A stretch of DNA of 64,000 bases from Asparagopsis taxiformis (lineage: Eukaryota > Rhodophyta > Florideophyceae > Bonnemaisoniales > Bonnemaisoniaceae): assembly GCA_030407315.1 (NCBI GenBank), contig JALQPE010002165.1, forward strand, positions 26,136 to 90,135, written 5' to 3'. Under the pieces are notes generated by a model. It was not told where the DNA came from. It ran no database searches and saw only the letters and a program-made list of their open reading frames with translations. Below, piece after piece: positions 11,096-64,000 of this stretch (the stretch's first letter is position 1; each line of letters begins with the position of its first letter). Made by a program: the position numbers and the translations under genes.

Positions 11096-11721
11096 TTCGA
11101 AATGAAGTGGTGTTGTATTCTGGTGATGAAAGTCGGCTAGCGCCCATGAGATGGTTATGTATCTGTTTGGAATGATAAAGTTTACTAATGAGGTTATGAT
11201 GAACTGTTGTCGCCTGGTGGCATTTTGAATCGATATCAAAAAAATCGAAGAGTTTGGGTAATGATCGAGATTGCTCACAGGGATAAAGTAATGGTAAGGT
11301 TCTGTCGAGCGCGCCACTAGGGCGAAAGGTGTACCTCTACCGCACTAGTGATCCTAGGAAAGATATGTGACAAAGCATCGTCATCCATGAGCATTGAGGC
11401 GCGCAAATCAAACTGGACATCGTTTGAAAGGTGGACGATAAGCAGAGGTGCATTACCACAGCTGCGTTAGATAACTCAAAAGATATTATTAGACACAAGT
11501 GATTATCGAAACTGAGTACTGCCTTGACCAGTTCAATGGATTGTATACCACAACCGCTTTTGCTTATAGTCTTCAATTCCAATATCACGCAAACCAATGA
11601 TATCATTCCAGGTGGCAAATTCAGCCTTACAACACATTACGACACTGTGCCCGAGTCAATGATGAGACATTATTCCAACAACGCCTTGATCATTTATCCA
11701 CATAATTCCCAATTACACACA
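11096..11721. other. Upstream region of sulfotransferase 3
   Basis: Contains the segment (about 11250-11520) similar to the upstream region of paralogue 2. No gene recognised. Confidence 0.5.
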
Positions 11722-43327: not shown

Positions 43328-45303
43328 CATTTGCTGCCTATAGGATTGTAATTTGTTTACATTATAATTTATCCTACGGGAATATCATTAACCTAGTGCA
43401 TAGTCACTATTTAGTAATATGGTTGAACATTTTAGCAAAAGTACCGACTCCTGGCCGTATAGGGCACATATAGACTAACCTAGTATAGCGGGTGTTTTAG
43501 GCAGGTTTTACCACCCCATTTAGTAGTATAAAATGGCTCCAGTTCGGGTAGCGAATTTGGATCAAGCCGTCATCTTCTTCAAAACCTTCATCAGTAAAGG
43601 GCAGTTGTCTTTTCTCAATTTGCTATCTACGGGTAATTACGTTACGCGGCGACAATTTGATCTAACTATCTTTTTTGTAATTTTCACAACATTCTGGAAT
43701 CAAGTGCAATTCAAAAGTAAGTCAATTTTATGCTTTCTCACACGTGACAAATCCTGCCAGTCAAAATTTAGCGTTACTGCGCCGAAAGGCAAAATCCGCG
43801 CCAGTCAAAATTTTCACTACATGATTTTTCAGAATTCCCATCTAACATTTGAACTTTCAAATTCTATGTTGCGGGCGTGCGACAGTGGATAAAATTTTTA
43901 TTTTTTCAAAACAATGAAAAGAACTTGACAGAGTCTCTCATGGGGCTTCAGTGGACGTTATCGAGCCGTGATCCGACACTGAGGATTCAGGCCGCCTATT
44001 GGCTATCGGATCGCCGCCACCGTACCGTATCCCGCGTAAAGTGCCTCCTGCGCAGTCGGCCTCCGACTGTAGCAGGTAGAAAATCCGCTAGAGCGGCAAA
44101 CCACCCGACTGGTGTCCCGAGCCTCGGTAGAGGGGGTGGTAGAGCAGATGAACCTTATAACGTACCCGGCAGGTAATCTCGTATGAGAGAAAGTATCGCT
44201 ACCCGGAGGGGGTTGTGCGATTAAAGCGCTCATGCGAGGTGCGTATTAATGGAGCAGAGTGACGTAATCCGTCGAGCTGTTGGCTAACCCTAAGGTTTTC
44301 CCGGAGAGGGGTTGAACAATAGGTATGCGAACACTGTTCCTGTGGGTCGTAATTCCACTTGAGTTTACGTTACTCTAGAAACCGTGCCTACTGGCTATTC
44401 CAGTGGCAGTTTTATACTAAGTCTACTGTAAGCTAGGGTTAGTGGCTAGGAATAAATATCCAGTTATTGACCCACCAGAGCCCAGTTAACGGCACTCGCC
44501 TACCCGCGACGTTATTGCCAGTTAGGCTTACATTGTAATGTACAGCTGATTAGCTCAAGTTAGAAATTTGTCCCTTGTGGGGTCTTGGCCGGGGCCGATA
44601 GGCTCGAGTAGGGTATTTACAGCCTTGCGCTAGTCCCAATTTCAGGAAACACGCCCAGTTGGCTGGTGCCTTGTGATTGGCACATCCCTTAAGTGGGTAC
44701 CCAATAGGGAAGCGACACGGCTCAGATTGTGAGGACCGCCAGGCGGTATGACATGGCCTCCTCCTGAGAGGTTTGTCGTCCCGACAAAATTAGAAAAATT
44801 ACAATTTTTGGGCGATAGCCGTTGCATTTTCTGCCTTTAGATTTTCCCGCGCCCAGCGCGTGTTCAATAATTTCGTTTAGTCCACCCGACTCTTCCGGAA
44901 GTCCACCGACCGTTTCCCATTGGAATCAACACCTGTTGCAGGTTTCTTATCGATCTTACGCGAACAGCGTATTCACCCCTTCGGTGTCCAACTGCGTTCG
45001 AGCATTCGCGTCCCTTCCGTCATCCCTCAAAGGGTTTTTGCATCCATCTGCAAGATAATTAACCGCGTGATCGCGTGAGCGGTGCTAACTCGAGGCTTTG
45101 AATTCGTCATCCCGGCCAATCGCCTTGCGATCCCCCTTCAGGGTTGAATACTGTAGTATATGTGGCCAATTCGAAAATGGCCAATATTTACAATTTCCGC
45201 GGAATTCGAATTTCGGCGGATACGACCGGCGACAGCAATGTACGAGCATTGCTGGCGCATGCGCGCGCGCAACCGGCACACGTGTGCAGCGAACGACGTC
45301 TGA
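43328..45303. other. Unexplained region with many short inverted repeats
   Basis: No protein-coding gene is supported. About 43930-45100 is unusually rich in stop codons in all frames and in short GC-rich self-complementary segments, unlike the surrounding spacers. A short direct repeat (GCCAGTCAAAATTT) occurs twice near 43757 and 43800. It may be a structured non-coding element or the decayed remains of a mobile element. Confidence 0.4.
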
Positions 45304-45420
45304 GTTTCTGGAAGTGGACGCGGACGTCCAGTCTCTCTAGTACGGGTCCTAGTCGGCCCCGAGATTTACTAGAACAAATGAACGTCCGCGTCCAAAAAAA
45401 AATAAAAATTTTTTGGATGC

Positions 45421-45557
45421 GGACGTCCACTTTCCCTAGTACATATGGCGGAATACTAGGGCCCGACATCCACTTTCTCTAGTACATATGGCGGAATACT
45501 AGGACCCGACATCCACTTTCTCTAGTACGTTTGGCGGAATACTAGGACCCGACATCC
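45421..45557. repeat. 43-bp tandem repeats, left arm (3 copies)
   Basis: The unit contains CTTTCTCTAGTACATATGGC then GGAATACTAGGACCCGACAT. Each unit holds the inverted pair CTAGTA...TACTAG. It is mirrored by four copies in the right arm. Confidence 0.9.
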
Positions 45558-45675
45558 AGTATACAATATATCAGCGAAAACCGGGAGGGAAGAAACTACA
45601 GCGGATGGTAAATTCAGGGCCCATATCGGACCGTATTTTATTCTCTCATTTACGAAACTGCTCGTATACAATACG

Positions 45676-45820
45676 TCTCTCTAGAATAGGAAATACAGAT
45701 CTGGTCAGAATAGGAAATAAATACCCGGTTAGAATAGGAAATACGTATCCAGTCAGAATACGGAATATGTATCCAGCCAGAATATGAAATACGTATCCAG
45801 CCAGAATACAAAATACCTGT
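45676..45820. repeat. 24-bp tandem repeats, left arm
   Basis: Six to seven imperfect units of AGAATAGGAAATACGTATCC followed by AGTC or AGCC. The same array is present, inverted, at about 63424-63575. Confidence 0.85.
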
Positions 45821-45989
45821 CAGCATATCGTCGATCACCCATCTCCCTCACTATCGCGTTCTCCCTACCATCCGAACGCCATGCACCACCATCCGCACAT
45901 ACTTCAAGAACCCTCACGACCTAGATTACAAAAAATCCGCTCCTTCCCAATTCCATCCCCGCTTTCCTCGACACCACCCCAGCCCATTA

Positions 45990-47040
45990 AATCATCAAGA
46001 CATCAAACACGAACATGGTCAGCAAAATCTTACACCACTTGAAACCCACTCTCACTTCTATCGTATGCCCCAAAATATACACATACCAGAAACACCTCAC
46101 AGCTTCATTCCCCATCTTCCTAGATCCCTTCTTCACTCTCCTTGAGTCCTGCCGTTCCTGCTTCACCACTCCTGCATCACATACACAACATCAGAATCAA
46201 CCACAACAGTCAGACTCAAAACCAACCTTCCGTCGCAGCATACTTTCAGAACTCGCACACTTACCTTCGCTCCACACAATACACACCATGACTCAATAGG
46301 CTTGTAATGAATGAATATTGGATCAACAGCAACAGTCAGACTCAAAACCAACCTTCCCTCGCTGCTTACTTTCAGAACTCGCACACTTACCTTACCCGTT
46401 CCATCCTGCACACAATAAAAACCATAAGTCACGTAATTGTGTAGCCAAGAAAAGTAGTCAGCATTCCGCATCTTCGCACAACCGGTCTGGGCGCCCAATG
46501 TGACTTACCTTCCGTCATCACTATTCCTCCATCACCTACGCAACATCGGAATCAATCGCAACAGTCAGATTGAAAACCAACGTTTCCCTCGCTACATACC
46601 CTGAGAACTCGCAAATGTACCTCTCATCCATCCTACACACAATACAAACCATGATCCAAAAACCTTGCAATGAATAATAATCATAGTCAGCAGTCCATAC
46701 CTTCGCAAACCACATCTTGGCACTCAATGAAACTTACCTTCCGTCATTAACATTCCTGCATCATCTACACAATATCGGAATCAACCACAACAGTCAGACC
46801 CAAAACCAACCTTCCCTCGCAGCATACTTTCAAAACTTCACGTACCTCTCTTCCATCCTCCGCTCAATACACACCATGAGTCAACAGGCTTCCAAGGAAA
46901 AATATCGCATCAACGGAAATAGTCAGACTCAAAACCCACGTTTCCCTCAATGCATACCCTCAAGATTCGCGCACGTACCTTCGTCCATCCTCTACACTAA
47001 ACAAAGCAAAGGCGGTCAAAGAATCTCAGTCGGTGATGAG
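45990..47040 (-). repeat. Tandem microexon-like units, left arm (outward strand)
   Basis: Several imperfect units of roughly 200-240 bp. On the minus strand each carries GTAAGT-type donors and AG acceptors flanking a 27-nt block (for example one ending near 46739 that reads ATGATGCAGGAATG...GGAAG) and a shorter block such as GATGGATGAGAG. The last unit runs into a longer frame, 45987-46169, starting MVKQERQDSRRVKKGSRKMG. See the right-arm copy for well-preserved examples. Confidence 0.6.
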
Positions 47041-47599
47041 GGCGGAGTGGAGCCTGCGGCGTCGACCGGACAGCTTTCAGCGTCCGCTTAAGTCTTGCTG
47101 TGCATACTCGAAATCATCGCCGGCAGTGAGATTGAGTATGGCCCAAACCATGGTCTATGAATCCCCGAACAATGAGATCCGGATCGAGAACAACGAATAT
47201 AAACATATAATCATATATATGAGAATCCATCTGCTTTCCTTACATGATCCGTGGCATATCCGCTGTAAAGCACATTCAGATTCCACGAAGTTCGGAAATA
47301 AAAAAGTTTATTATTACAAATGAATTAATTGAAAATTCATGTCCCAGGGCGGTCGTTCGTCCTTCCATGCACACGTTGCCAGCACGCAATGTGATGTAAC
47401 AGTTGGAAATGATTGAACTCTCGGTTAAATTCCACCGTTGGGATGTCAGCTGGAGTGAGCACAAAACTACTACCCAAAAAACTACGAACACGTTACATTC
47501 CAAGTCTCGAAAGCACCACAAAAATAAAATTGGTCGCATCTGGACGGCACAGTCTCCCCTGTTCAGCTCGCAATCCTCCCTTTTGCGTCAAAACTCGAC

Positions 47600-48121
47600 A
47601 TGGAATGCAAGTATGAAGGGTGCTTCTACTACTGCGTAGATGCTTATGCGCTCGCGCTGCATGAGCGAACGTGTCGCTACCGTTTCAACCCCTCTCCCCA
47701 ACATTTCAACAACGCTCGTGTCCCTGCCGTCACCCATGAGCCTGCTCGAAACGGCGACCATGATTCCCCGCAACCCAGCTCCCCAGACCCAGAATCTGGT
47801 CGTGCTTGCTCCAGCGACTCACCCTGTGACGCTCCACTGCCACCAAACTCAACCCCCTCCCGCGCAGACCTCCTCGTGCAATCCCTCGCCGCCAGTCTCA
47901 CAACCCTCGAGTACAAGGCCGGGGCTGGCCGCGTGAGCGAAGTCATCACCATCCTACAAGACCCCGCATTCTCCCTAGAAAAGTTCAACAGCGCCGTTCG
48001 CACCGTAGAAGAATGTCGCCACGTTACCGCTTCCATGGTCGAAACACATTTCCGCACCGAAGGTTACAAGAGCCACACGTCTGTGTTCTCGGAAATGGAC
48101 GCGGACGTCCACAACCTCTAG
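47600..48121 (+). CDS. Hypothetical protein with N-terminal zinc-finger-like motif
   Basis: A 173-codon frame in the extra segment of the left arm. It starts MECKYEGCFYYCVDAYALAL and residues 3-25 fit a C-x4-C-x12-H-x3-C zinc finger. A Ser/Pro-rich linker (residues ~50-90) and a helical segment (LLVQSLAASLTTLEYKAGAG to about 140) follow. It ends FSEMDADVHNL with the stop inside a copy of the element's terminal motif. The same closing residues, FxEVDADVQSL-stop, can be read at the left tip of the element. It may be a DNA-binding accessory protein cut by insertion of a second element end, so its natural C-terminus is uncertain. Confidence 0.45.
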   Translation: MECKYEGCFYYCVDAYALALHERTCRYRFNPSPQHFNNARVPAVTHEPARNGDHDSPQPSSPDPESGRACSSDSPCDAPLPPNSTPSRADLLVQSLAASLTTLEYKAGAGRVSEVITILQDPAFSLEKFNSAVRTVEECRHVTASMVETHFRTEGYKSHTSVFSEMDADVHNL

Positions 48122-48390
48122 TACACCTAGTATTACTAGGCGGACGTCCATGTTGTCCAGTATTTTTGGATGTCCGCCTAGAACCGGACGTCCATGCGGT
48201 CTAGTACGTCTAGTATTACTAGGACGACATTCATTGTTTCTAGTACCACGGATGTCCTCCTCGGGATGGACTTCCACCATGTCTATGTCCGCCTAGGACG
48301 GGCGCCGGTTCAGAAATTCAAAAATTTCGACCCCAGAAATTTCTGCCGCCGTGCTCGACATGGATGTCCGCATCCATCACGGCGACCACT
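48070..48390. repeat. Internal copy of an element terminus
   Basis: Begins CGTCTGTGTTCTCGGAAATG then GACGCGGACGTCC, which matches the left tip (near 45296) and the right tip in the same inward orientation as the left tip. It continues with shuffled pieces of the terminal repeats (CTAGTATTACTAGG twice, several GGACGTCC). It looks like the end of a second, nested or rearranged copy. Confidence 0.65.
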
Positions 48391-48399
48391 CTAATTTTC

Positions 48400-49450
48400 C
48401 TTGTCGGTCGACTCCAATTTAGTCTTTAATTTTTTCATCCTCTCGCTCACACCCCCTTCCTGTTGGTGCTCACCTCCCCCGTACTGTACCTCAAACACCC
48501 CCAATACCACTCTAGCGCGCATTTTCAGCTACCTGTCCCCGCTTCCACGGTGCACACCTCCATTCCATACCTACTTTTCGGCTTTACCGTACAGATTTCG
48601 TATAACCAGTCCTCATACTACCTCAGAATAAGGAAAAACACCCCTAACTCCTCGACCATGCTCTCCCCCATCACCTTTGCAACGTATTGTTCTTCAATAC
48701 CTCTCTCCTCTACCTTCAACCCCTCTCCTTCGCCCTCTCCACAAACTTCCCCTGCAGCTTACTCTTCGAAAACCTCTGACTCCCCATCCCGTGCCCGACC
48801 TGCTCCATCCCCTCCCTCCCTCAGCTGCTCCATGCCCCCCACGCCATCCGCATCTTAGATACCGTATACAGCACCACCACCGGCCCACACTCCCGCTCCC
48901 CCGCCGTCTCCTCAGAAACATCCTCTCTCTGAGCCACATATCAACTTGATAAGGGTTGAACCCCCCACTTCGCACCCTTCCTCCCACTCCCCTCCCTCCC
49001 CAAATACAATAACCCCCTTCTTCTCCATCACATCCCCACTCACCACAGCCAGAACAGACGCCACCCCCCTCCCCCTCTTTCTCCTCACTTTCCTAAAACC
49101 CCCTCCTCTCGGCGCCTTCAACCACAGCCTCCTACGGTCCCACCTAAACACCTCCTCCGCCCTCACTACCCCCAACACCCCGCAGCGTCTCTCTAATCCC
49201 CATAATATGCTCGTCAGCACTCCTCTCCGAATCACATTCCAGTCTAAACCCGCACTCCGTACATTTCCACCTCCCCCTGTACCATCCCAAGATTCCATCC
49301 AACCCCCCCACTACAGAACACATCCTCATACCAAAGAAGAATTTTCTTCCTCCCATACATCATCCTTAAAACCTCCATCAGCTCCATGTAAATTTCGATG
49401 TAAATATTTTCTCCACTATGCAATCTCAAACATGTATGAGCGTATGCCTT
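48400..49450. other. Strongly pyrimidine-rich segment (plus strand)
   Basis: The plus strand is nearly G-free over long runs of CCCCTCCC-type sequence. The minus strand is correspondingly G-rich and holds overlapping open frames in two registers (for example residues KCTECGFRLECDSERSADEH near 49230, which contain a C-x2-C pair). No frame is long enough or conserved enough for me to call. It may be a decayed gene or low-complexity filler. Confidence 0.45.
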
Positions 49451-49587
49451 TCCGCTTTGTCAACCCTGAATATTTGTATTCATGTATTCATAAAATAGGG
49501 CCACCCACATCCCTATCCCGTTCTGCAAGCTTTACAAACCACCAGACGCATACTCCACAACTATACAACAAACACTACTCGCTATTT

Positions 49588-49644
49588 CAGACGACGCGGT
49601 ACACAAGTAGCATAGGCTATGCTACTTGTGTACCGCGTTGTCTG
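49588..49644. repeat. Near-perfect 57-nt palindrome
   Basis: Two 28-nt arms (outer CAGACGACGCGG, inner TAGCATAG) around a single central G at 49616, with about one mismatch. A smaller palindrome (GAGACTGAGTCTC) follows at 49643-49655. The matching place in the right arm (about 61075-61095) has only the left half, so the second half is an extra, snap-back copy. Confidence 0.8.
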
Positions 49645-50123
49645 AGACTGAGTCTCAACCTTCCGTGACGCCTTCCCTGATGCGTACAAGTGCGAAACAC
49701 GTCTAGACGTATATCACAAGTGAGTGCGGGAATTTTCGGCACAGGAGATGCTGGGCCACCAAATTGATTTTTCGGAAATTTTAGAATTTCTGGGCTGGCC
49801 AGCAACGCAATCGAGCTGGACATCCACCGGACGTCCATTTCAGGTTGGTCGTGAGAGAGTGGGGCGGGACCATGATGAAACAAGGACCAAGACCTGTCCC
49901 TGGCGTATTGAGCCTGAAATCGACCCTTCGTGAGACGCCATTTAGCCATACAGTTGGTGCTTGTAGAAGCCAGTGATAGCCCCGATCGGGGCGGTGACCG
50001 GTTCCGGCTTACAGTTGGTGCTTACAGACGCCAGTGATAGCCCCCGATCGGGGCCGACGGTCGGTTCCTGGGGCCGTTGTGGCCAAATTAGACACCCTGA
50101 TTAGAATTAAAATTTGGGCTATT

Positions 50124-50157
50124 CTCAAAAACATGCACATGTGAACATGTTTTTGAG
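50124..50157. repeat. Hairpin/palindrome copy 1
   Basis: Arms CTCAAAAACATG and CATGTTTTTGAG (12 bp, perfect) around a 10-nt loop that contains the palindrome CACATGTG. GTGCCGTACGGCAC follows at 50166-50179. Confidence 0.9.
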
Positions 50158-50626
50158 ATGGGGGTGTGCCGTACGGCACAATCGACCCGCCCAAATCGTT
50201 GATTTTTGCAAGATTTTTTTTGCCCGAAATTTTAGAATTTCTGGGCTGGCCAGCAGTGCATCTGAGCTGGACATCCACCGGACGTCCATTTCAGGTTGAT
50301 CGTGTGCTGCCTACATCCACGCATTGCAGTAACTAAGCAGGCGGGATCACTACTAATATAAAGTGCACGGAATATGAGTAACGTGATGGGTGAGTAGTGT
50401 TTGTGTTGAGGGAGTAAGGCGGGACCATTATGAAACACGGAAGAAGATGCGTACCTAGCATAACTTAGGCTTGAAGCCTGGAATCGACCCATCTTTCGGC
50501 GCCATTTAGCCTCACAGTTAGTGCTTACAGAAGCCAGTGATGACCCCGCTCGGGGCGGCGGCTCCGGTTCCTGGGGCCGTTGTGGCCAAATTAGACACCC
50601 TGATTTGAATTAAAATTTGGGCTATT

Positions 50627-50660
50627 CTCAAAAACATGCACATGTGAACATGTTTTTGAG
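50627..50660. repeat. Hairpin/palindrome copy 2
   Basis: Identical 34-nt hairpin, followed 8 nt later by GTGCCGTACGGCAC. Confidence 0.9.
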
Positions 50661-51076
50661 ATGGGGGTGTGCCGTACGGCACAATCCACCCGCTGAAATC
50701 GATGTTTTTTGCAATATTTTTTTCTGCCCGAAATTGTAGAATTTCTGGGCTGGCCAGCAATGCATCTGAGCTGGACATCCACCGGACGTCCATTTCAGGT
50801 TGATCGTGTATCGTGCACGTCCACACATTACCGGAAGCAAGTAGGCGATGAAGCACGTACATACCCAATTGTTCTGCTATTTCTAGCATAGACCATCGAG
50901 TCTAGAGATGTGAGGGAATCGTCCTGGAAATCATGCTCCAACCCACGAGGGAATGGACAATCTAGTTTGAAAGCATGGAACGGAAGTACATTATACTAGG
51001 TTCATAGATTGGAAGTGATAAAGGAGATGATTATATTCTCGATAATTGTTTACCAAAGTAGTAGTTGTTAAGCTAT

Positions 51077-54000
51077 CTAGCCGTCGGAAAATTCTTCTTC
51101 GTCTTCGTCCTCACTATATTCAGGATCTCCCGGCAGAATAGGCGTTATCGGCAACTGTGGAGTTGAATAGCTCAAGATGAATTTTTGACCCGGTGTGAGG
51201 GTTCTCTTCTTGGGAGCTTCTGTCGTCTTCATCCGCATGATTCCGAGTTGCCCTGTCTTCGGCCTACGATCTTTCTTGACCGGGATGGGAACAACTGTCT
51301 TGTGGCGAACATTGACAGGTCCCGGTTGACTTTGCCTGGCAGACCGGCGCGGAGCATTGGCGATTACTTCTTCTTCGAATCCCAACCGCCTGATGAAACC
51401 AAACGAAACATTGTCGGGAATCGGATACGACGCATTCCTGAAATACGTGTGATACCTCGTTGTCGTGTGTGACACAACTCTGTCGACATGCCCTGCCCCG
51501 GCATGTTGTACATAGCCGTGACCGATGAAGACTGAACGTGGCGGAACGATTACCTTCTTCAGCTTCATCGTCTTGGCGTACATATCTAATTCCAGCGCTT
51601 TGGAAAAGACGTACTTGTGGGACCCTGGACACACCCAGATAGGGAATGGGTCATCTCCGTTGGCAATAACAAAGTAACCCGGAAGTTGATCTTTGCGGTC
51701 GCGAGGAGGAACAGGGAAATCATTGTGTGGGACCTGCCGAGGACACCCCTTTCCCGTTATCAAAAACCGTCCCCCAGATGCCGGCATGACAAGTTTTTCT
51801 CCCGGTAAACCGCACTCCTCCAGCCCTATCAGCCGGACAAGGATTCCCAACCACACATCCAGCAGGGCTCGCCGCGTCACAAACTTGAACCGGTCGATAT
51901 GCGTCTCATCGTTCTCGGCATAGTCAACCAGGCAGTGGCGCGTAGACGTGAAGCGAGCCCTCCCCTCATTCCGGTTCTTCTCATCTGTTTCATCGTCCCC
52001 CGTATTGACAATGGGACTCCACAGCTGCCGGTTCCCAGGGTCCTTGTGCACCTCCTCCCCCTCCCACGTTCCCAAAAAGTACCGAAACAATTCCTGGATA
52101 GGAATTTCTTCCATGAGACCCAAGTCAAATGGGAACTTGTCCGACGCATCGAGGTAGCTTACATCCGCGAAATTGTGCATCACCGTATACCCTCGCTCGT
52201 TGATTTCCGTTCGGCAATTGTGGAAGTACGCCATACCAGTGCCGGCCTCATACGAATCCTTCCAGCTTGTAGACATTCGCGCAACCTGGGCGAAGTCCAG
52301 CCTCGAGGGTAGAAACGTCGATGTAGGCTCACACATCGCCTTGGCAGCCATCTTCCACGCTGCGAAAAACATCGGATAGATGGTGTCGATCTCGAAAACA
52401 AGATGACGAGCCCGATGTTGTTCCGGAATATGCAGCCCCTCAAACACAGGGTCCATCGCCACTTGCTTCAAATACCTCACCTCTCTGCCCTCCTCATCGA
52501 TTTCCACACTCTCCAATAACAACCTGAGCTCAATCGGGGGCAGACAACCAACCCTCACCGATGCGATGACGTCCGCGGGACGCTGCGCCAGATGATGCCC
52601 TTCAGCTCGGTCTTTGACTTCGAAATCGTCGGGAAGAGATGGCATCCGGTCGTCGAACAGGAGGTCGTGTTCAGAAGGAGAGTCACGAACGATGTAACCG
52701 TCTTCATCGACTTCGACTCCTTCCGGAACAGTGAGTGTAATTGTCACTTCGCGGACCCCCTTGCTTTCGACTTGGCCCTCGTCTGCACTGTTGTTTTCTT
52801 CCTCGTCCGAAACGTTATGGACAGATTCTTGGTTGGAGGGAGTCGCACCAGCACGTTGGTTATCTTGGGGGACAATCTCAACGGCAGAATCGGGGGAACG
52901 GGCGGAGTCTTCGTCAACCTCATCACCGGAAGCAGTGGCTTGTTGTTGATCGGTGGGTTTATCAACAACGGCCTGTTCTTCTTCCCCGGCGGATTGTTGT
53001 ACCACAACCGGCTCTTCTTCCTCGAGACGTGTGCTCCCCGTCGAGCGAAGTCGCTGTGAACGGCGGCGGATGCCATGCGAAGCAGGCTCATGTTCGACAT
53101 TCCGCTGCTTCTTGTGAGTGAGTCTCACATTGGCAGCAGAAGGGCGGCGTTTGCGTCGAGCCTTAGTCTTCTTCTTCAATGTCGGATTGAAAAACTCTTT
53201 CAAGTTCGTTTCCAAATCCTGTAAACGCGTGGCTCTCCGTCGCATTCGAACCTCACTGCTCCGGTCGTCCCCTCTATACATTGCAATGGCATTGGTGAGA
53301 TGCCATTGCAACTCCTTCGGCTGCTTAACCGACCCAATTGCCATCTCTGTGCTCAGAAATGACTTGCGCATAATACTCTTTGGGCGCCCAAACGCAGCGT
53401 ACAGAGAATTTGCTATTGCAGTCACGCGACGGACGTATGTATAGAAGTCGTTCACGTCAAAGCGTCCATCCGGACGTCCACCATGAGCAGGGTTCAAGTA
53501 CTCCGAAAGACCACGCAAGACGAAGACAAAGTTTTCTTCCAGCAACTCGCGCACTATCTTGTGGTCCAGGTGCGTTATCCCAATCTCGTTGCGGCGCTCG
53601 GAATTGTTCAGCTCACGCAACACTTCGTCGAGAACAGGATGCTTCAGCGTTGCTATAGCCAAACGCGTCCACCGCCGGGCCGTGTTCGTTGAATTCATCA
53701 TCCCCATGAACTGCGCCTCGAACAATGTTCGGATGACATCAGACTCACGCAAGTCGCCAGCGTTTTCCACGTTATTTGCAACAGCAATCGTACGGATGAA
53801 CTGCTGGATGGACGACAAGATTCGAACCAGGGAGCGCTCCGTCAGTTGCGTCCCAGTCGTATGGTTCGACTCTGCACTCTTGTGGATGATCTCATGAGGC
53901 TGAAGATCACTGTCGTCCTTGCGGCGAAGGTAGTACACATCCAGAGGCTGAGTAACCCAGCGCAAGCGGTTTGCGTCCTGTGGCAGCTTGGTTCTGTGCA

Positions 54001-55033
54001 TACGGGTGAGGCGAGTGAAGTCATCGGCAATGCTATGCATAGCATTGAGACGATGCAGTCCGTCGATCACGGTCACGTTCGCATTGGCATGGAATTTGCC
54101 ATTCTGGAACAGACGCGTGTCGGCGGGCAGATGCGTGTTCTGCGACCTCAGCACCGTCACAGTGATACGCGAAGAGCTCACATACCCCACAGCCAACATA
54201 TTGTTGCGCAGGTCCTCCACGTGGTCTTCTTTCACATCCCGAAGGGTCACGGCCGGTTCCACTAGCTGCCTCACCAGCACAGTCGCTCCTTCTCCGACGT
54301 AATCCGACGTCACAAACTTGGGCACCGTAATTTGCGTCCCCTGCTGCTCACGAATGCTTTCCGCCACCTCCGGTTCGTCGTCCACTTCGGTTACGTCCTG
54401 CGTAGTAGCTTCGGTGACGTTGGAGCGAGCAGGGTGCTTCGTGCCTCCACTGGAGGGTCTTGCAGAGCGAGCAGGGCGCTTCGTGCCTCCCGAAACCGGA
54501 GTGGAGCGTGCTGGATGCTTCGTACCCCCCGAACCAGTGATTTCGCCTGCCGGACCGGTACTGGGCATCCGTCCCGAGCTGGCCTGGTTCGTCGCTGCGT
54601 TGAAGTTTGACGCTGCAGCAGGGGTACGAATGTCGCTAGGGCCATCCTCCGCAGCGGGGCGCATCATCCGAGTATCCCAAGGGTAAAACGCCGCGGCGTA
54701 TGCTCCACCCATCGTCTCCGGTGGTCCCTCGGCGCCATCAAACATGTACGGGAACGGGAGGTCCTTGAACTTGTCCTTAGTCGCAATGTTGCGCACGACG
54801 ATATAGTCCGCCTCGTCGGTTTCCGGCAGCTTGTGGTTGTGCAGCGTGCGCGGAAGGCCAACATCGCCACCAGCAGTGCTCACCGAAGCCGTCCCAATAT
54901 GCACAGCCGCACCGTCCACGTCCGCAAACAAATTGACATCGACGCCGCGCTTGAGTCCGCGCGACTCCGCTGACGCGCTCACTTGATCGCCGCAAACCGT
55001 TGAAAACAAACTGCTGAAATGCGTATCCGCCAT
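51077..55033 (-). CDS. ParB-like domain fused to 2-oxoglutarate/Fe(II) dioxygenase-like domain
   Basis: 1318 residues from MADTHFSSLF (ATG 55033; an in-frame ATG 120 bp upstream is less likely). Residues 165-205 repeat GGTKHPARS three times. Residues ~235-420 carry a ParB/sulfiredoxin-like domain: LRDVKEDHVEDLRNNML, then NVTVIDGLHRLNAMH (319-333), which matches the ParB 'DGxxRxxA' motif. A helical region follows to ~600, then a basic stretch (KKKTKARRKRRP) and a long acidic linker (~680-800). Residues ~860-1230 contain a dioxygenase-like double-stranded beta-helix: HND (H1103, D1105), PGYF, WVCPGSHKYVF, GHGYVQHAGAG (H1172/H1177) and R1193. These fit the HxD...H iron site and 2OG-binding Arg. 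The C-terminus is basic then acidic. It may oxidise nucleic acid or protein; substrate unknown. It is the only large gene of the element. Confidence 0.75.
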   Translation of the reverse strand: MADTHFSSLFSTVCGDQVSASAESRGLKRGVDVNLFADVDGAAVHIGTASVSTAGGDVGLPRTLHNHKLPETDEADYIVVRNIATKDKFKDLPFPYMFDGAEGPPETMGGAYAAAFYPWDTRMMRPAAEDGPSDIRTPAAASNFNAATNQASSGRMPSTGPAGEITGSGGTKHPARSTPVSGGTKRPARSARPSSGGTKHPARSNVTEATTQDVTEVDDEPEVAESIREQQGTQITVPKFVTSDYVGEGATVLVRQLVEPAVTLRDVKEDHVEDLRNNMLAVGYVSSSRITVTVLRSQNTHLPADTRLFQNGKFHANANVTVIDGLHRLNAMHSIADDFTRLTRMHRTKLPQDANRLRWVTQPLDVYYLRRKDDSDLQPHEIIHKSAESNHTTGTQLTERSLVRILSSIQQFIRTIAVANNVENAGDLRESDVIRTLFEAQFMGMMNSTNTARRWTRLAIATLKHPVLDEVLRELNNSERRNEIGITHLDHKIVRELLEENFVFVLRGLSEYLNPAHGGRPDGRFDVNDFYTYVRRVTAIANSLYAAFGRPKSIMRKSFLSTEMAIGSVKQPKELQWHLTNAIAMYRGDDRSSEVRMRRRATRLQDLETNLKEFFNPTLKKKTKARRKRRPSAANVRLTHKKQRNVEHEPASHGIRRRSQRLRSTGSTRLEEEEPVVVQQSAGEEEQAVVDKPTDQQQATASGDEVDEDSARSPDSAVEIVPQDNQRAGATPSNQESVHNVSDEEENNSADEGQVESKGVREVTITLTVPEGVEVDEDGYIVRDSPSEHDLLFDDRMPSLPDDFEVKDRAEGHHLAQRPADVIASVRVGCLPPIELRLLLESVEIDEEGREVRYLKQVAMDPVFEGLHIPEQHRARHLVFEIDTIYPMFFAAWKMAAKAMCEPTSTFLPSRLDFAQVARMSTSWKDSYEAGTGMAYFHNCRTEINERGYTVMHNFADVSYLDASDKFPFDLGLMEEIPIQELFRYFLGTWEGEEVHKDPGNRQLWSPIVNTGDDETDEKNRNEGRARFTSTRHCLVDYAENDETHIDRFKFVTRRALLDVWLGILVRLIGLEECGLPGEKLVMPASGGRFLITGKGCPRQVPHNDFPVPPRDRKDQLPGYFVIANGDDPFPIWVCPGSHKYVFSKALELDMYAKTMKLKKVIVPPRSVFIGHGYVQHAGAGHVDRVVSHTTTRYHTYFRNASYPIPDNVSFGFIRRLGFEEEVIANAPRRSARQSQPGPVNVRHKTVVPIPVKKDRRPKTGQLGIMRMKTTEAPKKRTLTPGQKFILSYSTPQLPITPILPGDPEYSEDEDEEEFSDG

Positions 55034-55407
55034 GATTGTTGAGTTGGAAAGTAAAAGAGATGGTTGACGTTGACGTATTCGAGTGATGTGGATGGTAGGT
55101 TTCACGTTGCTTGAAGAATGGTCGTGAACGCCAATCGCTGGAAATAATAACACAATACAACCGAAATTTTGTTAGGTACACACCTATCGTGACCGCTGGA
55201 ATGCAAGAGAGGCAATCGAGATGTGAGTGTCCGTTCGGAACGGGCCCGAGTCGGGCTCTCGAAACCTGACGAGGTGGCGTGAAGCAGGCAGTGTCCTTGA
55301 TGTGTAATGTGTTAAAATTACAGCTGTCAAGCTAGGCGGGTTTTGGGCGGCTGCGAGCACCCCTTTATCCGGGGAACACCCTGATTTGAGTTAAAATTTG
55401 GGCTATT

Positions 55408-55441
55408 CTCAAAAACATGCACATGTGAACATGTTTTTGAG
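55408..55441. repeat. Hairpin/palindrome copy 3
   Basis: Identical to copy 1. GTGCCGTACGGCAC follows. Confidence 0.9.
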
Positions 55442-55908
55442 ATGGGGGTGTGCCGTACGGCACAATCGACCCGCCCAAATCGTTGATTTTTGCAAGATTT
55501 TTTGTGCCCGAAAGTTTAGAATTTCTGGGCTGGCCAGCAATGCATCTGAGCTGGACATCCGCCGGACGTCCAATTCAGGTTAGTCGTGTGCTGCCTACAT
55601 CGACGCATTGCAGAAACTAAGCCAGCGGGCTCACTACTAATACAAAGTGCACGGAATATGAGTAACGTGATGGGTGAGTAGTGTTTGTGTTGAGGGAGTA
55701 AGGCGGGACCATTATGAAACACGGAAGAAGATTTCTCCCTAGCATAACTTAGGCTTAAAGCCTGGAATCGACCCATCTTTCGGCGCCATTTAGCCTCACA
55801 GTTAGTGCTTACAGAAGCCAGTGATGGCCCCACTCGGGGCGGCGGCCGGTTCCTGGGGCCGTTGTGGCCAAATTAGACACCCTGATTTGAATTAAAATTT
55901 GGGCTATT

Positions 55909-55942
55909 CTCAAAAACATGCACATGTGAACATGTTTTTGAG
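55909..55942. repeat. Hairpin/palindrome copy 4
   Basis: Identical to copy 1. GTGCCGTACGGCAC follows. Confidence 0.9.
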
Positions 55943-56407
55943 ATGGGGGTGTGCCGTACGGCACAATCGACCCGCCCAAATCGTTGATTTTTCACAATTT
56001 TTTCTGCCCGAAATTTTAGAATTTCTGGGCTGGCCAGCAATGTAATTAAGCCGGACATCCACCAGACGTCCATTCTGGGTTGTTCGTGTGCTGCTCACAT
56101 CCACGCATTACAGCAACCACGCAGGCGGGCCCACTGCTCATACGAAGTGCACGTAGTATGTGCAGCACGATGGATGAGTAGTGTTTGTCGTGAGAAAGTG
56201 GGGTGGGAGCATGTCGAAACAAGGACCAAAACTTTGCCCTGGCGTATTGAGCCTGAGCCTGGAATCGATCCTTCGTGAGATGTGGCTTTGCTTACAGTTG
56301 ATGCTTACAGAAGCCAGCGATGGCCCCGCTCGGGGCGTCGGATGGCTTCTTCAGGGGCCGTTGTGGCCAGATTAGACACCTTGATTTGAGTTGAATTTTG
56401 AGCCATT

Positions 56408-56441
56408 CTCAAAAACATGCACATGTGAACATGTTTTTGAG
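56408..56441. repeat. Hairpin/palindrome copy 5
   Basis: Identical to copy 1 although the flanks differ (AGCCATT before it). GTGCCGTACGGCAC follows. Confidence 0.9.
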
Positions 56442-57349
56442 ATGGGGGTGTGCCGTACGGCACTTTCGACCGCCCAAATCGATATAATTTTGCAATTTTT
56501 TTTCTGACTGAAATTTTAGAATTTCTGGGCTCGCCAGCAATGCAATTGAGCTGGACATTCACCGGACGTCCATTTCAGGTTGGTCGAGTATTGCACATGG
56601 ATACAGTTTTGCAGCTATTTCTCAGCCCAACATTTTAGAATTTCAGGGCTGACCAGCAATGTAACCGAGCCGGACTTCCACTGGACGTCCATTTCAAGCT
56701 AGGCGAGTGCTGCACATTTGCTCGCATCGCAGCAACTAAGCAAGTGTTGAGAGCACCGAGATGCCATGCAGACAAGAGGGAATCGGCTGCAAACGGCTTC
56801 CCTGGTCGGCGGCTGGATGTCTGGATGTGAATGGCTGCAAGCATGGAAATCTTGCTACCGCACGGCGCATACACACTGCAGCAGCACATCACTGACGCAT
56901 GCGAAAGTTGGGTGCTGCAGTGCGTGGTTGTTTGTGTGTTTGTGTGTGTATGACGAACCTTGTGGTATCCCTAGGCGTGCACTGGTGCAAAAAGTTTGGA
57001 CTGCCCCATCGGTCGTACTTTGACGCATTTACATGCATCGGAGAACGACCAAGGAGGTAGAGCAGCAATCGCTGTTGGCTGAGCGTCCAAACTAGAGGGC
57101 TTTGGGCAATGGTTCTATAGCAGTCATTTAAAGGACGCCCACCGTTGATGACTGAGATCCACGGTGTGTTTAGTATTCGTGGTGTTGTCCTGCATTGGCG
57201 GACGTCGAAGACGAGTACTTCCAGTGAGCGTCCAAGGTGAACAGCTCAGCAGAGGATTATGATGTGGATGTGAAGGCATGGATGAGGCCAGCAGGAACGT
57301 TTCTGCAAGATGGGCGTGAGTGGGTAAGTGAGCGGGGAGGGGCCGCTCG

Positions 57350-57625
57350 GGGCGCTTGGTAGCCTCTGGGGCCGTTGTGGCCAAATTAGAATCAAGCCTA
57401 TGTCCGGCGGACGTCCTGAATTGCTTTATTTTTTGGGCTATTCTCAAAAACATGCACATGTGAACATGTTTTTGAGATGGGGGTGTGCCGTACGGCACTT
57501 TTGACCGCCCAAATCGATGTATTTTTGCATTTTTTTTCTGACTGAAATTTTAGAATTTCTGGGCTCGCCAGCAATGCAATTGTGCTGGTCATTCACCGGA
57601 CGTCCATTTCCATTTCAGATCTACT
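57350..57625. repeat. Partial ~500-bp module
   Basis: Retains GGGGCCGTTGTGGCCA, the hairpin (57443-57476), GTGCCGTACGGCAC, TTTAGAATTTCTGGGCTCGC and CACCGGACGTCCATTTC. The middle is altered. Confidence 0.85.
57443..57476. repeat. Hairpin/palindrome copy 6
   Basis: Identical to copy 1 in a diverged module. Confidence 0.9.
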
Positions 57626-60394
57626 GGTTGCACTAGGCCTGAAAGTGTTTCTGGATAGGGCCGAATAACGACCTGGGCAGGACGCACTGCGTAAGATGAT
57701 CTGTGGGATGCAGACTGCAAGGATTGCTATGGTGATTCTGGCTGGGGAATGTGGTAAGCTTGATTGTTGCGTGGCTTTGTATCTCCTTGCCTGCCATTTT
57801 GCTTGGATATCATATCATATCGTAAATGATTCACACGAGCGATCAAACCGAAGACGCCGACTCGGCACAACTACCAACTCTCCTAGCTTCGAGCTAGCGC
57901 CATCTAAGAGCAACTTGTGACACTCAAGACGAATACGTTGTGCTGATCTCTGCAATGAAAATTGAATTAGTGCTGCAGTTCTTTTGGTCGATGCCAATAT
58001 GCAGGGATACTGTTTACACCATTTGGGAGTCAAGAAGTTCTCGGATTGCAAATCAAATCAGATTGTGGTAGAATATCTGACTGTTCTCTCTTCCCTTCAC
58101 CACATCTGCATCCGGAGCTGAGCTAAGCTGAGCTGGAGGGAACCCGGCCGCTGACCCCTGTCATTCTCATAAAAATCTTAATGCAATACTATTCGTGTTT
58201 GGTAATGTAATTGCTAATGAAAATGTATACAAGTCTGGAATAAACGTTGCAGTGGTTTTTTGTAGCTATCGATACTTGCTAAAAATCTGCAGCTTTTGCT
58301 TCTCGCATGGACGAGTTGCAGTAGGGGGGTTACAAAACGTATTGTTTCATATTTTGCACCGTGGCTCCGAGCTCCAGGCCGCATACGACCGCCTTCAATT
58401 CAGATTACCTGGTGCTGCGCATCGGGGTTTGACAGGTGTCGGAACAAGACAAATCCTCCCACTTTGTGTTTGTTTGATTTCTGCCACAAACGAGAGGCAA
58501 TCAGGGTCTCTGTTCACATAGAGAAGGATTTAATATATGCGCTCATTGCCGTCGTAGATGCTTTTAACAATGGCCAGTACGTTACTCTCGGCCGCCGCCG
58601 GGTACGGTCGGACTGAAAGATCGGGGAGATGTGTGGAGAGTGGTGTTTGGATAGAGACGCACGTTGCGATGGATGGAAGGTGATGATTTCATGCTGAAGC
58701 GATGGGAGATGGATGGATATGGTTGGATGAAATCTAGTACTCCGAAGGAGGCCTTTTCTCGAGGAAGAGGCATTATATTCTCACAAAGCATGTAGATACT
58801 GGTTTCCAGTTTGGTATGCTATTGTAGCTCAATTCACATCTTATCTACACGTACGTATGGAGAGAGATCCAAGTGTGCGTGGCACAAGTCCAATGGTGAA
58901 ACAACGCAGTATGAAACTACCACAGATAAGGCGGCGTACAAAAGCCTCGACTCAAGGCAGCTCTCAGGCTTTCGTGAGCACCGACTTCGTTCCACCAAGA
59001 TGTTGCGGAAATATGTGCTGGTCTAACTTGATACGACCATTGGACAGTTTTGCTCTCTAAGCAATGAGCGAAAAATCAATGATTGCGCGTGTCGTCGGTA
59101 CGGTCTTGTAATGTTGGCTCAACCAATAACATCTAACGTTCAGTTATCCACCCTCCGCCGTGTCGCGTCGTAAATTTGCACAGAAAATTTGTTTCAAATC
59201 TTTGCTCCAATTATCAGCTCAAATACGGCATTGATCTCCAGCTTCATCTGGACAGAAACACCGATCGCTCGATGTCTGTCTCAAATAAACCGCAGTCAAA
59301 CGCCATGCGGAAAGTTTCATCGCTTCCCGTTGCGACTGAATCTGCAAACGCCACACAACAATTTGCCCTTTCCGCGTCCGGAACGAACGCCGAGTACATG
59401 TCGCCAGGTTCCTGATCAACTGGATCGATGGAGCTTGCTCTGCAGGAGAGCAGGACAGGCGGTTTGTTATGCCTGGACAATTTCCATACCGATCTCCCTT
59501 CTTGAGTGCAAAATTATGAGTCTAGAAATTGACCTGCATCGGCTGCTGTATCACATCTGTGCTAAGGATTGATGATACCCGTACCGCTGAGAAATTGCAG
59601 CTCTGGTAACGTGGGGATGATGTGCTGAACACGCAGAACGCTGATCCATAACGGGACTGCTTCATAGGCATAGTACGGAATGTATTGAGACAGCCCAAGC
59701 GAATTCAGGAGGGAGCACCAGGGCAGTGCGCGGTGACTCAGCAGATACCAGTGGTGAGTGGTCTAAATGGGGCTACACACGAGTTTGTCAATGAACAGTC
59801 TAGTTTAGTTTGGAAATGTGTCGGATGGATGGTATGTTGTAAATGTCGACAGATTTGAGGAAGCGATAGAAGCAATCAGCACCGTGTAGTTGCATCAAGG
59901 CTTTAGTGGCCATTGCTAGAGAACTTTCTCCAATGCCATTATTGCAGGATAGGCAGAAAACCCGGCCGGCTTCGAGATTGAAGAATTCATTGCGCAGATT
60001 GAATGAATGCAATTGACGGAGAATGCAGAAGTATACAATGGTATCGTTTTGGAGGGTGACGTAGGGGAAACATGTTGGGCTTGTTGGAAATGCTGAGAGC
60101 GATGATGAGATCCAGTCGTTTCCGTCGTAGATGGCGGTGCTTATTTTCTGCACGGCTAGCTTGTCTGCTGGGCGACTGGGCGGTATTGGCGTACGATGAA
60201 GCGGAACTGGTGGTGTTTAAATGACATTTTTTGTTTGGAGATGGATGTATGTGTGCGACTAGAATGTAGTAAGAGGATGAAATTGTTTATGTTTGATGGG
60301 CGTCGCATGTTGGGGGACTTTATGTCGTGTGGGGCAATAATGTCTCAAGTATTTGAAGCAGACAGCAATCGCTTGAGCACATATAGACGTCCGA
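57626..60394. other. Interior segment of the element with short minus-strand frames
   Basis: Minus-strand frames at 57815-58051, 59244-59480 and 59800-60153 read like ordinary protein sequence but carry no motif. The last (117 codons, MQKISTAIYDGNDWISSSLS...) shares an IYDGN(D/E) segment and surroundings with minus-strand sequence near 58545-58590, suggesting two diverged copies of a gene fragment. I cannot define a complete gene. Confidence 0.35.
59800..60153 (-). CDS. Hypothetical protein fragment inside the element
   Basis: 117 codons from the first Met. The open frame extends about 20 codons further upstream (PPSRPADKLAV before QKIS). Hydrophobic/aromatic residues and cysteines (CILRQLHSFNLRNEFFN, CLSCNNGIGESS) look protein-like. 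No family is recognised. It could be an exon of a larger minus-strand gene or a relic. Confidence 0.3.
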   Translation of the reverse strand: MQKISTAIYDGNDWISSSLSAFPTSPTCFPYVTLQNDTIVYFCILRQLHSFNLRNEFFNLEAGRVFCLSCNNGIGESSLAMATKALMQLHGADCFYRFLKSVDIYNIPSIRHISKLN

Positions 60395-60965
60395 TGAATG
60401 ACCAGCGCAATTGCATTGCTGGCGAGCCCAGAAATTCTAAAATTTCAGTCAGAAAAAAAATGCAAAATTATATCCATTTGGGCGGTCGAAAGTGCCGTAC
60501 GGCACACCCCCATCTCAAAAACATGTTCACATGTGCATGTTTTTGAGAATGGCTCAAAATTCAACTCAAATCAAGGTGTCTAATCTGGCCACAACGGCCC
60601 CTGAAGAAGCCATCCGACGCCCCGAGCGGGGCCATCGCTGGCTTCTGTAAGCATCAACTGTAAGCAAAGCCACATCTCACGAAGGATCGATTCCAGGCTC
60701 AGGCTCAATACGCCAGGGCAAAGTTTTGGTCCTTGTTTCGACATGCTCCCACCCCACTTTCTCACGACAAACACTACTCATCCATCGTGCTGCACATACT
60801 ACGTGCACTTCGTATGAGCAGTGGGCCCGCCTGCGTGGTTGCTGTAATGCGTGGATGTGAGCAGCACACGAACAACCCAGAATGGACGTCTGGTGGATGT
60901 CCGGCTCAATTGCATTGCTGGCCAGCCCAGAAATTCTAAAATTTCCAAAAAGTCAATTTGGTGGC
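60395..60965 (-). repeat. Inverted ~500-bp module
   Basis: The reverse complement of about 56030-56545, almost without differences: a 64-codon frame is identical in both (56181-56375 + and 60580-60774 -). Together the two form an inverted pair with a 3.9-kb spacer. Confidence 0.9.
60514..60547. repeat. Hairpin/palindrome copy 7 (inverted module)
   Basis: Same hairpin in reverse orientation. GTGCCGTACGGCAC lies on its left at 60492-60505. Confidence 0.9.
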
Positions 60966-61639
60966 CCATCATCTCCCGTGCAGAAAACTTTCGCACTCAT
61001 TTCTGATATACGTTTTGACATGTTTCTTACTTTTAAGCATCAGGAAAGGCGTTACGGAAAATTGGGACTACGCCACTTGTGAGCCGCGTCGTCTGAGATA
61101 GCGAGTAGAGTTTGTTGTATAGTATTTATATTGTATTCTAAATGTGCGTTCGAGACCTCGTTTGTAATGTTCTCGTGGTTTTGTGGGTATCAGTTTTGTG
61201 CTCACTTCTGGCAGCCCAATGGTGGAATGTGCCTGAGCGATCAATCATCACCTACTGCTAGGTCATACATTTTGCTGGAAACGTTTGCTTGGAAGGACGA
61301 ATGACCGCCGTGGGAGATGGATTTTCAATTAATTCATTTGAAATAATAAAAATATTAATTGCGAACTTCATGGAATAAGTTTGTGCTTTACAGTAGATAT
61401 TACAGGGATCATTTAAGGGAAGCAAATGGATTGTGATATATATGATTATACCATTTCGATGTTCTCGATCCGGATCTCATCATTCGGGAGTTCAGAGACC
61501 ATGGCTTGGGCCATTATTAATCTCAATACCGGCGATGATATGGAGTATGCACAGCAGGACTTAAGCTGACGTTGAAAGCTGTCCAGTCGACGCCGCAGGT
61601 TAACCTGTGGAATTCCACTTCTCCGCCGTCACTGGCTGA

Positions 61640-63140
61640 GGTTCTTTGGCCGTGTTTCCTTTCTTTGGTGTAGAGGATAGAACGACGGTGAGTATGGCAG
61701 TTTGGAGAGTATGCAGCGAGGGAAGGGTGTGTTTTGAGTCGTACTGTTGTCGTTGATGCGATATAGATTCAATAGAAGCTTCGTGAGTCATGGTTTGCAT
61801 GTTGTGAACGATGGGAGGCAGGTAAGTAAGTGAGTCTCGCGGGTGTGCAATAAGGGATGCATGGGTTTTTAGTCTGACTGTTCTGGTTCATTTTGATGTT
61901 GTAGGTGGTGCAGGAATAGTGATGAAGTAAGGTAAGTTTCATTGAGGTTAAAGACGGGTTTCGCGATGAAATGGAATGCTGACTACATTTTTTTCGTTGC
62001 ACGATTTGTGACTTATTGGTTGTATTGTTTGTATGATGTAACGAGATGAAGAGGTTAAGTGCGTCCTGACTCAGGATTCACCCTCGGAGGGTACGAAGCG
62101 AGGGAAGTGTTTGTTTTGAATTTGACTGTCGTCTTTTATGCAATATTTATTTATTGGGAGCTTAGTGATTCATGGTGCATATTTGCTGAAGGGTGGAAGG
62201 GAGGTAGGCGAGCATTTGAGGGGTGCAGTGAGTGGAATGTGGGTTTTGAGTCTGACTGCTGTGGTTGATGCTGATTTTGTGTAGGTGATTCTGGAATGGT
62301 GATGACGGAAGGTAAGTTACATTGAGCGCCTAGTTAAGTTGCGCGAAGATATGGAATGCTGACTACATTTTTTTGTACAACTTTTGACTTATGGTTTCTA
62401 TTGTGTGCAGGATACAACGAGGGTAAGTGAGTTCTGAGGGTATGCAGCGAGGGAAGCATGGGTTTTCAGTCCGACTGTTGTTGTTGATTTCGATTTTTGT
62501 AGGTGATGCAGGAATGGTGATGACGGAAGGTAAGTTGCATTTAGCGCGTAGGTGGTGCGAAGATGCGGAATGTTGACTTCATTTGTTGGTTGTGAGATTT
62601 TGACTTTTGGTCTGTATTGTGTGTAGAATGAAACGAGGGTAAGTGAGTTCTGAGGGTATGCATCGAGGGAAGTGTTTGTTTCGAATCTGACTATTGCAGT
62701 TGATGCGATATTTATTCATTGGAAGCTTATCAAGTCATGGTGCGTATTGTGTCGAGCGAAGGAAAGTGCGGAAGTTTTGAGAGTATGCTGAGAGGGACAT
62801 GTGGGTTTTGAGTCCGACTGTTGTTGTTTGATTTCGATTTTGTGCAGGTGATGCAGGAATGGTGATGACAGAAGGTAAGTTTCATTGAGCGCCAGGATGT
62901 GTTTTGCGAAGATATGGACTGCTGACTATGATTATTCATTGCAAGGTTTTTGGATCATGGTTTGTATTGTGTGTAGGATGGATGAGAGGTAAGTAAGGGA
63001 GTTTCTAGGATATCTGTCGTGGTGAGCGTTGCATTTGAATCTGACTGTTGAGGTTGATGTTTTGTATGTGATGCAGGAGTGGTGAAACAGGAACGGCAGG
63101 ACTCCAGGAGAGTGAAGAAGGGATCTAGGAAGATGGGGAA
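61640..63140 (+). repeat. Tandem microexon-like units, right arm (outward strand)
   Basis: Well-preserved 27-nt blocks lie at 62285-62311, 62503-62529 and 62848-62874, each preceded by a T-rich tract plus AG and followed by GTAAGT. Twelve-nt blocks lie at 62411-62422 and 62977-62988, also between AG and GTAAGT (62627-62638 is similar). Intervening segments of 80-100 nt contain TGCTGACTAC, a plausible branch site. All blocks are multiples of three and open in one frame (DxGxVMTE for the 27-mers), except the 12-mer at 62627 and the degraded units near 61650-62100, which carry stops. Confidence 0.6.
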
Positions 63141-63423
63141 TGAAGCTGTGAGGCGTTTTCTGGTATGTGTATATTTTCGGGCATACGATAGAAGTGAGAG
63201 TGGGTTTCTAGTGGTGTAAGATTTTGCTGACCATGTTCGTGTTTGATGTCTTGATGATTTAATGGGCTGGGGGGTGTCGAGGAAAGCGGGATGGAATTGG
63301 GAAGGAGCGGATTTTTTGTAATCTAGGTCGTGAGGGTTCTTGAAGTATGTGCGGATGGTGGTGCATGGCGTTCGGATGGTAGGGAGAACGTGATAGTGAG
63401 GGAGATGGGTGATCGACGATATG

Positions 63424-63575
63424 CTGACAGGTATTTGTATTCTGGCTGGATACGTATTTCGTATTCTGGCTGGATACATATTCCGTATTTCTGGCTGGAT
63501 ACGTATTTCCTATTCTAACCGGGTATTTATTTCCTATTCTGACCAGATATGTATTCCCTATTCTAGAGAGACGTA
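63424..63575. repeat. 24-bp tandem repeats, right arm
   Basis: Inverted copies of the left-arm array, unit GGCTGGATACGTATTTCCTA with variants. Confidence 0.85.
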
Positions 63576-63686
63576 TTGTATACGAGCAGTTCCTAAATGA
63601 GAGAATAAAATACGGTCCGATATGGGCCCTGAATTTACCATCCGCTGTAATTTCTTCCCCCCGGTTTTCGCTGATATATTGTATAC

Positions 63687-63866
63687 TGGATGTCGGGTCC
63701 TAGTATTCCGCCAAAGTACTAGAGAAAGTGGATGTCGGGTCCTAGTATTCCGCCATATGTACTAGAGAAAGTGGATGTCGGGTCCTAGTATTCCGCCATA
63801 TGTACTAGAGAAAGTGGATGTCGGGTCCTAGTATTCCGCCATATGTACTAGAGAAAGTGGACGTCC
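63687..63866. repeat. 43-bp tandem repeats, right arm (4 copies)
   Basis: Unit TACTAGAGAAAGTGGATGTC then GGGTCCTAGTATTCCGCCATATG, the complement of the left unit. One copy more than the left arm. Confidence 0.9.
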
Positions 63867-64000
63867 GCCCTCCAAAAAATTTTTATTTTTATTTTTTTTG
63901 GACGCGGACGTTCATTTGTTTCTAGTAAATCTCGGGGCCGACTAGGACCCGTACTAGAGAGACTGGACGTCCGCGTCCACTTCCGAAAACACAGACGGCG

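Follow-up and report, generated by a model that had tools for sequence, protein, structure and literature searches.

The last 18.7 kb of a 64,000-nucleotide stretch of Asparagopsis taxiformis DNA (the window, which lies at the end of contig C2039 in an assembly of 141.5 Mb and 3156 contigs) look like one large element bounded by inverted arms, and the question raised by this locus is what kind of element it is. An earlier note had proposed a new class of mobile or self-maintaining element reaching from 45304 to 63998, with a fusion of a ParB-like region and a dioxygenase as its only large gene. In the following, D denotes the dioxygenase-like gene, T the transposase gene, and R and L the two tip types of the family. 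The inverted arms are real, with 74–99% complementarity between about 45.3–47.5 kb and 61.2–63.9 kb. However, they do not delimit a single element. Copies in contigs C2426 and C2475 lose homology to the window on the 3' side of D at 48078, at a proper L tip followed by unrelated sequence, and the left boundary at 45304 was dropped for this reason. Since these copies end at 48078, the long arms belong to two separate copies, each with its R end pointing outward. The window thus very probably holds a 15.92-kb copy lacking T, inserted in the opposite orientation into the transposase gene of another copy, the two forming a nested pair of Plavaka transposons (CACTA-like, DDE-type). The two outward R-type tips of this pair imitate an 18.7-kb element.

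The interrupted copy is recognised from its sequence to the left of the insertion. Over the 301 bases from 45300 to 45600, all 40 scored candidates (1291 at first look) match at 97% or more at full length or nearly so, and 46322–48077 is 98.4% identical to a transposase-bearing copy in contig C921. The 159 T codons that precede the insertion are the sole T match in the window, with none inside 48078–63997. They match all 150 scored places at 99–100% (1532 first-look candidates), many of them in frames of 1036–1078 codons. The full open reading frame from C921, of 1013 residues, matches the Plavaka family PF18759 with an E value of 3.9e-24 (85.9 bits, cut-off 26.3). It contains C394-x2-C397 in HPCHRC (from residue 392) and H651-x3-H655 in FHLLDH (from 650), which by their residue pattern are of the C(2)C and H(3-4)H types described for CMCT transposases in PMC12730594. 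Together with inverted tips and target duplications of 2–3 bp at nine of 14 tip pairs, the domain match and the motifs liken the family to Plavaka, a member of the CMCT clade in that paper. The proposed new class is not supported: the family is of the Plavaka type, with its T motif at 976 places and a cut T 5' end in the window. The claim that D is the only large gene holds for the 15.92-kb copy in the window but not for the family, which also encodes T.

In another C2475 copy (L049) the transposon homology breaks off at the position corresponding to window 49006. Within C2475:182586-187500 (L049, L040) the sequence at 186101 resembles a Copia-type polyprotein by eye.

Features of the probable nested pair in the window (positions within the 64,000-nucleotide stretch)
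Feature	Position	Strand	Basis
Dioxygenase-bearing transposon copy, without transposase	48078-63997 (15,920 bp)	-	Left end: C2426 and C2475 copies; right end (R tip): tip comparison
5' part of second family copy (R-type tip variant CGTCTGAG, subterminal region, start of T)	45297-48077	+	Cut by insertion at 48078
L-type tip CGTCTGTGTTCTCGGAAATGGACGCGGACGTCCACA	48078-48113	+	579 forward + 579 reverse exact copies genome-wide (1158), control 0
R-type tip CGTCTGTGTTTTCGGAAGTGGACGCGGACGTCCAGT	63962-63997	-	25-base R core: 659 forward + 672 reverse (1331), control 0
43-bp subterminal tandem repeats, R end	63687-63865	.	Tandem Repeats Finder; also 45422-45558 in the other copy
Plavaka transposase gene, first 159 codons, truncated by insertion	47600-48076	+	150/150 scored places match
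D gene, 1318 codons + stop	51077-55033 (codons 51080-55033)	-	Uninterrupted frame; copies and relatives P0002-P0005
Oxygenase-like region, residues 770-1245, HxD...PGSHK...HAGAG...R	51299-52726	-	Five-sequence alignment and motif positions
ParB-like-motif region (DGxHRxxA), residues 235-640	53114-54331	-	Motif in window gene and P0002

The tips were counted as exact matches on both strands, with reversed patterns as controls. The L tip begins CGTCTGTGTTCTCGGAAATGG, and the first 36 bases of the R and L tips of the true element are identical at 32 positions. At every unaltered tip sampled CG precedes TCTGTG; with this CG counted as the element's own, the termini are CGTCTGTG..CACAGACG. The 43-bp tandem repeats near the ends are candidate transposase-binding sites, and tandem repeats of 24 bp are likewise found near the ends. 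The transposon copy in the window also contains an internal inverted repeat of 493 bp (56010-56502 vs 60453-60945, 99% complementarity), with related repeats at about 50.1–50.8 and 55.4–56.6 kb.

That the element is mobile, as the earlier note supposed, is borne out by more than 1000 tip copies, target duplications, near-identical gene copies and insertions of family members into each other. The same 2 bp stand on both flanks in eight of the 14 tip pairs, including AA at the D-only copy in C2426, and one further pair has a 3-bp duplication (TAA). At 1/16 per pair the chance of eight in 14 is 5e-7, without correction for the chosen tip boundary. The flanks do not match in the other five (C11, C12b, C88, C164, C135). 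The TAA case, in C102, is inserted in another D gene, so the uninterrupted D genes supply its empty site. Like C102, L041 shows a family member inserted into one of the family's genes, and another R tip lies inside a D gene copy at C2475:168116-168120 (L039). A tip pair in C960, considered as a 12-kb element, was rejected and excluded from the 14 because its two halves, C960:66534-69834 (L005) and 54830-58130 (L006), are exact reverse complements throughout their 3301 bases, the 1.5 kb of flank on each side included. Such a perfect palindrome points either to a join of the fold-back kind or to a genuine inverted duplication. The 30 D genes ranked best by protein score are 98.9–100% identical (median 99.4%), with 29 free of stops. 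The family is young, recently active and abundant.

Genes and tips recur in this family in a regular arrangement. With at most two mismatches allowed, the D motif occurs at 907 places (448 + 459) and the T motif at 976 (454 + 522), with no match for either control. Order and spacing were tallied in contigs C4–C199, among the matches listed (R 98, L 99, D 74, T 69), for neighbouring pairs of like orientation that follow the sequence R, T, D, L; neighbours in opposite orientation and other orders also exist outside this tally. All 43 R–T pairs are 3.9–5.1 kb apart and all 57 D–L pairs 3.0–4.7 kb, with 11 of 13 T–D pairs at 11.9–14.4 kb. The 14 gene-less R–L pairs all span 10.0–12.0 kb; three T–L and five R–D pairs have varied distances. 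The recurring order is tip, T, about 13.5 kb, D and tip, complete in C88 (20.8 kb), C164 (21.3 kb) and C135 (23.3 kb), and a 600-base stretch at the predicted D place in C88 is the D gene at 98–99% identity. This recurrence of order and spacing suggests that the family has two-gene forms of about 21–23 kb. Copies with T only (C12, 15.6 kb; C113, 14.2 kb) and with D only (C2426, 16.9 kb) are also found, and the R–L unit in C107 (11,125 bp) corresponds to the D element minus its gene, 93–99% identical over long aligned stretches. By rough arithmetic the family could make up about a tenth of the assembly.

The existence of D copies without T, in the window and in C2426 with its AA duplication, and a D motif nearly as frequent as that of T would also fit a new class of giant element that is moved or maintained by the ParB/dioxygenase protein itself. 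However, the same tips bound T-bearing copies and gene-less copies of 10–12 kb, several with target duplications, and no recognised recombinase domain was found in D by sequence searches. Such a class is extremely improbable, and nothing in the data speaks for partitioning or self-maintenance. In this family T would act in cis on the tips of its own copy and in trans on those of others, which would also allow T-less and gene-less forms to move.

Several observations weigh against the nested pair and the two-gene family as described here. The right flank beyond the R tip consists of only three bases at the contig end (63998-64000, GCG), making the right junction unreliable. These bases are no continuation of the interrupted T gene, so only the left side documents the nesting. 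None of the three two-gene copies has a target duplication and in C135 the R tip is altered as well. Some joins in the assembly are doubtful, as illustrated by the C960 palindrome, and chimeric joins in this fragmented assembly could be the cause of the missing duplications. The termini also differ from those given for Plavaka in PMC12730594, TGT..ACA (PlavakaA) or CATCA..TGATG (PlavakaB), and match neither type. As the placement rests on the transposase while the termini differ, 'Plavaka-like' is the safer name for the element. The apparent two-gene unit of 21–23 kb and an accessory protein that is not TET/JBP by sequence set it further apart.

The lack of duplications at the complete R–T–D–L copies, and the T-only and D-only copies, would fit T and D as separate elements sharing tips, a two-component family whose apparent two-gene units arose by assembly joins or by the nesting of copies. 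Against this, the spacing and orientation of T and D are regular, no exact tip lies between them, and the layouts in C88, C254, C2475 and C2372 speak for a joint unit. Separate elements are thus distinctly unlikely, and a Plavaka-like family with two-gene forms is preferred.

The 1318-codon gene described in the earlier note is confirmed, and its motifs are DGLHRLNA (residue 324), PHNDF (1102), GHGYVQHAGAG (1171) and TTRYHTYF (1191). All 35 scored copies (4390 first-look candidates) are full length at 99–100% identity, 34 of them without an internal stop. The whole protein has no match in Pfam (up to E 1), NCBIfam or PDB sequences. Its relatives are P0002 (1060 residues; 32% identity across 37% of the query region, and 29% in a separate comparison), P0003 (99% identity, 32 member sequences), which is probably from the same or a sister species, and P0004 and P0005 (36% and 43% identity). 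AlphaFold2 models of the two regions were unusable, with predicted local distance difference test (pLDDT) scores of 36 and 33 (oxygenase region, five sequences: 33). A profile search with alignment A1 at E 0.01 returned nothing, not even its member P0002, and is uninformative. Searches of phage sequences by tblastn gave no match for the N-terminal part and two hits, both at E 5, for the oxygenase region, and PHROGs gave one weak match (E 0.02), by P0002 only, to a group of unknown function.

The C-terminal half of the supposed fusion stands as a 2-oxoglutarate (2OG)-Fe(II) oxygenase signature, whereas the ParB half is not confirmed. The predicted iron triad consists of H1103, D1105 and H1177, and the predicted 2OG-binding arginine is R1193 (RYxxY). 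The HxD...H...R set is kept in three divergent relatives as far as they extend: P0004 and P0005 retain HxD, the distal histidine and the arginine, and P0002 retains HxD, its sequence stopping short of the distal histidine. As HxD/E...H...R is common to the whole oxygenase superfamily, it does not identify a TET/JBP enzyme. The layout HxD ... PGSHK ... H ... R is that of PhyH/EctD-type 2OG oxygenases. D shares this layout, but the oxygenase region has no Pfam match even at E 10.

The Tet_JBP profile PF12851 matches neither the D protein nor anything in the genome. Profile searches of the genome were calibrated on 14 control genomes, none of which gave a Tet_JBP match above the cut-off either. 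DNA_methylase (PF00145) was also absent from the genome, as was MT-A70, a family chosen as a check on genes with introns, which was not detected in any of the 14 control genomes. As this check was silent everywhere, the empty Tet_JBP and DNA_methylase searches are weak evidence. According to PMC12730594 (Kojima 2025), TET/JBP genes occur in many fungal transposons, among them Plavaka elements from Agaricus bisporus and Gymnopus confluens, and fall into the types PU, AG and PE, the last marked by HxE. The present family resembles these in being a DNA transposon with a second gene bearing a 2OG-Fe(II) oxygenase signature. It differs in that D has no PF12851 match, HxD in place of the PE-type HxE, PGSHK and a long N-terminal region.

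The ParB assignment of that N-terminal region comes down to a motif resemblance, which neither PF02195 nor profile–profile comparison confirmed. The DGxxRxxA motif is weak alone, occurring in 186 of 5000 shuffles of the D protein, and its better support is the retention of DGLHRL in P0002. D shares the DGLHRLNA motif with the ParB/Srx N-terminal domain (PF02195), but no D copy matched that profile, in a search that works in 11 of the 14 control genomes. The sole PF02195 match in the assembly, C1526:7582-7839 (38.9 bits, within a frame of 290 codons), may come from a bacterial contaminant contig. The N-terminal region alone gave only a sub-threshold Pfam match, Cytochrom_C_2 at E 0.21. Alignment by hhalign to 26 Bacillota ParB proteins scored 13.3 (probability 0.1) with a two-sequence query profile of low power. 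Column shuffles (60) reached up to 22.2, with at least five above 13.3, and four other D regions scored 12.4–16.5, two of them higher. The alignment placed a P..LR...L..N...G stretch as in ParB. This register and the DGLHRLNA-type motif layout are those of ParB, which keeps the idea of a ParB-like domain alive at the level of sequence without supporting it. The main text of PMC12730594 contains none of the words 'ParB', 'fusion' or 'fused'. No literature linking ParB with TET, JBP, dioxygenase or fungal transposons was found, and for Plavaka with a dioxygenase only PMC12730594 was found, most subscription papers being outside the scope of these searches.

Assuming a genuine ParB/Srx-like domain, D could be a self-targeting enzyme, in which this domain would load at the subterminal repeats, spread, and deliver the fused non-TET 2OG oxygenase to rewrite a silencing mark on the element's own copies only. 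This is highly unlikely, though if true it would help explain some 900 D places in one genome. Another role is suggested by analogy. Anti-silencing is the proposed role of the TET/JBP enzymes carried by fungal transposons, and the D protein may oxidise a silencing mark close to the element, borne by DNA or else by a protein or RNA. D is tentatively proposed, at somewhat less than even likelihood, to benefit the transposon instead of the host, with such oxidation as the likeliest means. The absence of Tet_JBP and DNA_methylase matches from the genome searches counts weakly against such an anti-silencing role. The observed/expected CpG ratio is 1.12 in the D gene (no depletion) and 0.82–0.90 in the non-coding parts of the element (mild depletion).

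D could instead have been captured from the host and travel as cargo that does nothing for the transposon, as it belongs to no Pfam family and many copies lack it (the 14 gene-less R–L pairs). Against this stand the 907 places with the D motif and the well-kept frame: when P0002, the distant relative, was used for scoring, all 43 D copies scored (of 3728 first-look candidates) had stop-free frames of 1264–1434 codons matching its N- and C-terminal regions. Of the changes at the 84 variable sites of the 30 D genes, 35 are synonymous and 49 non-synonymous, where 22 and 62 would be expected (P 0.0017), a signal of selection that is only suggestive, as the copies were chosen by protein score, which favours synonymous changes. 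Mere cargo is unlikely on this evidence, and a role of D in aiding the transposon is rated above it, though at less than even odds.

Elsewhere in the window lie ordinary host genes, eukaryotic by their Pfam matches, such as Nup98, a Cdc6/ORC-like ATPase, ATP_bind_1 and an inositol polyphosphate kinase. Two frames with Sulfotransfer_2 domains (4850-6043 and 10091-11317) lie among them.

For annotation, the locus teaches that nested copies of one family can pass for a giant new element. If a Plavaka family does carry an oxygenase of another, Pfam-orphan kind, transposons would have recruited such enzymes repeatedly. The high recent copy number of this family makes it a good system in which to test whether such enzymes help transposons to escape silencing.

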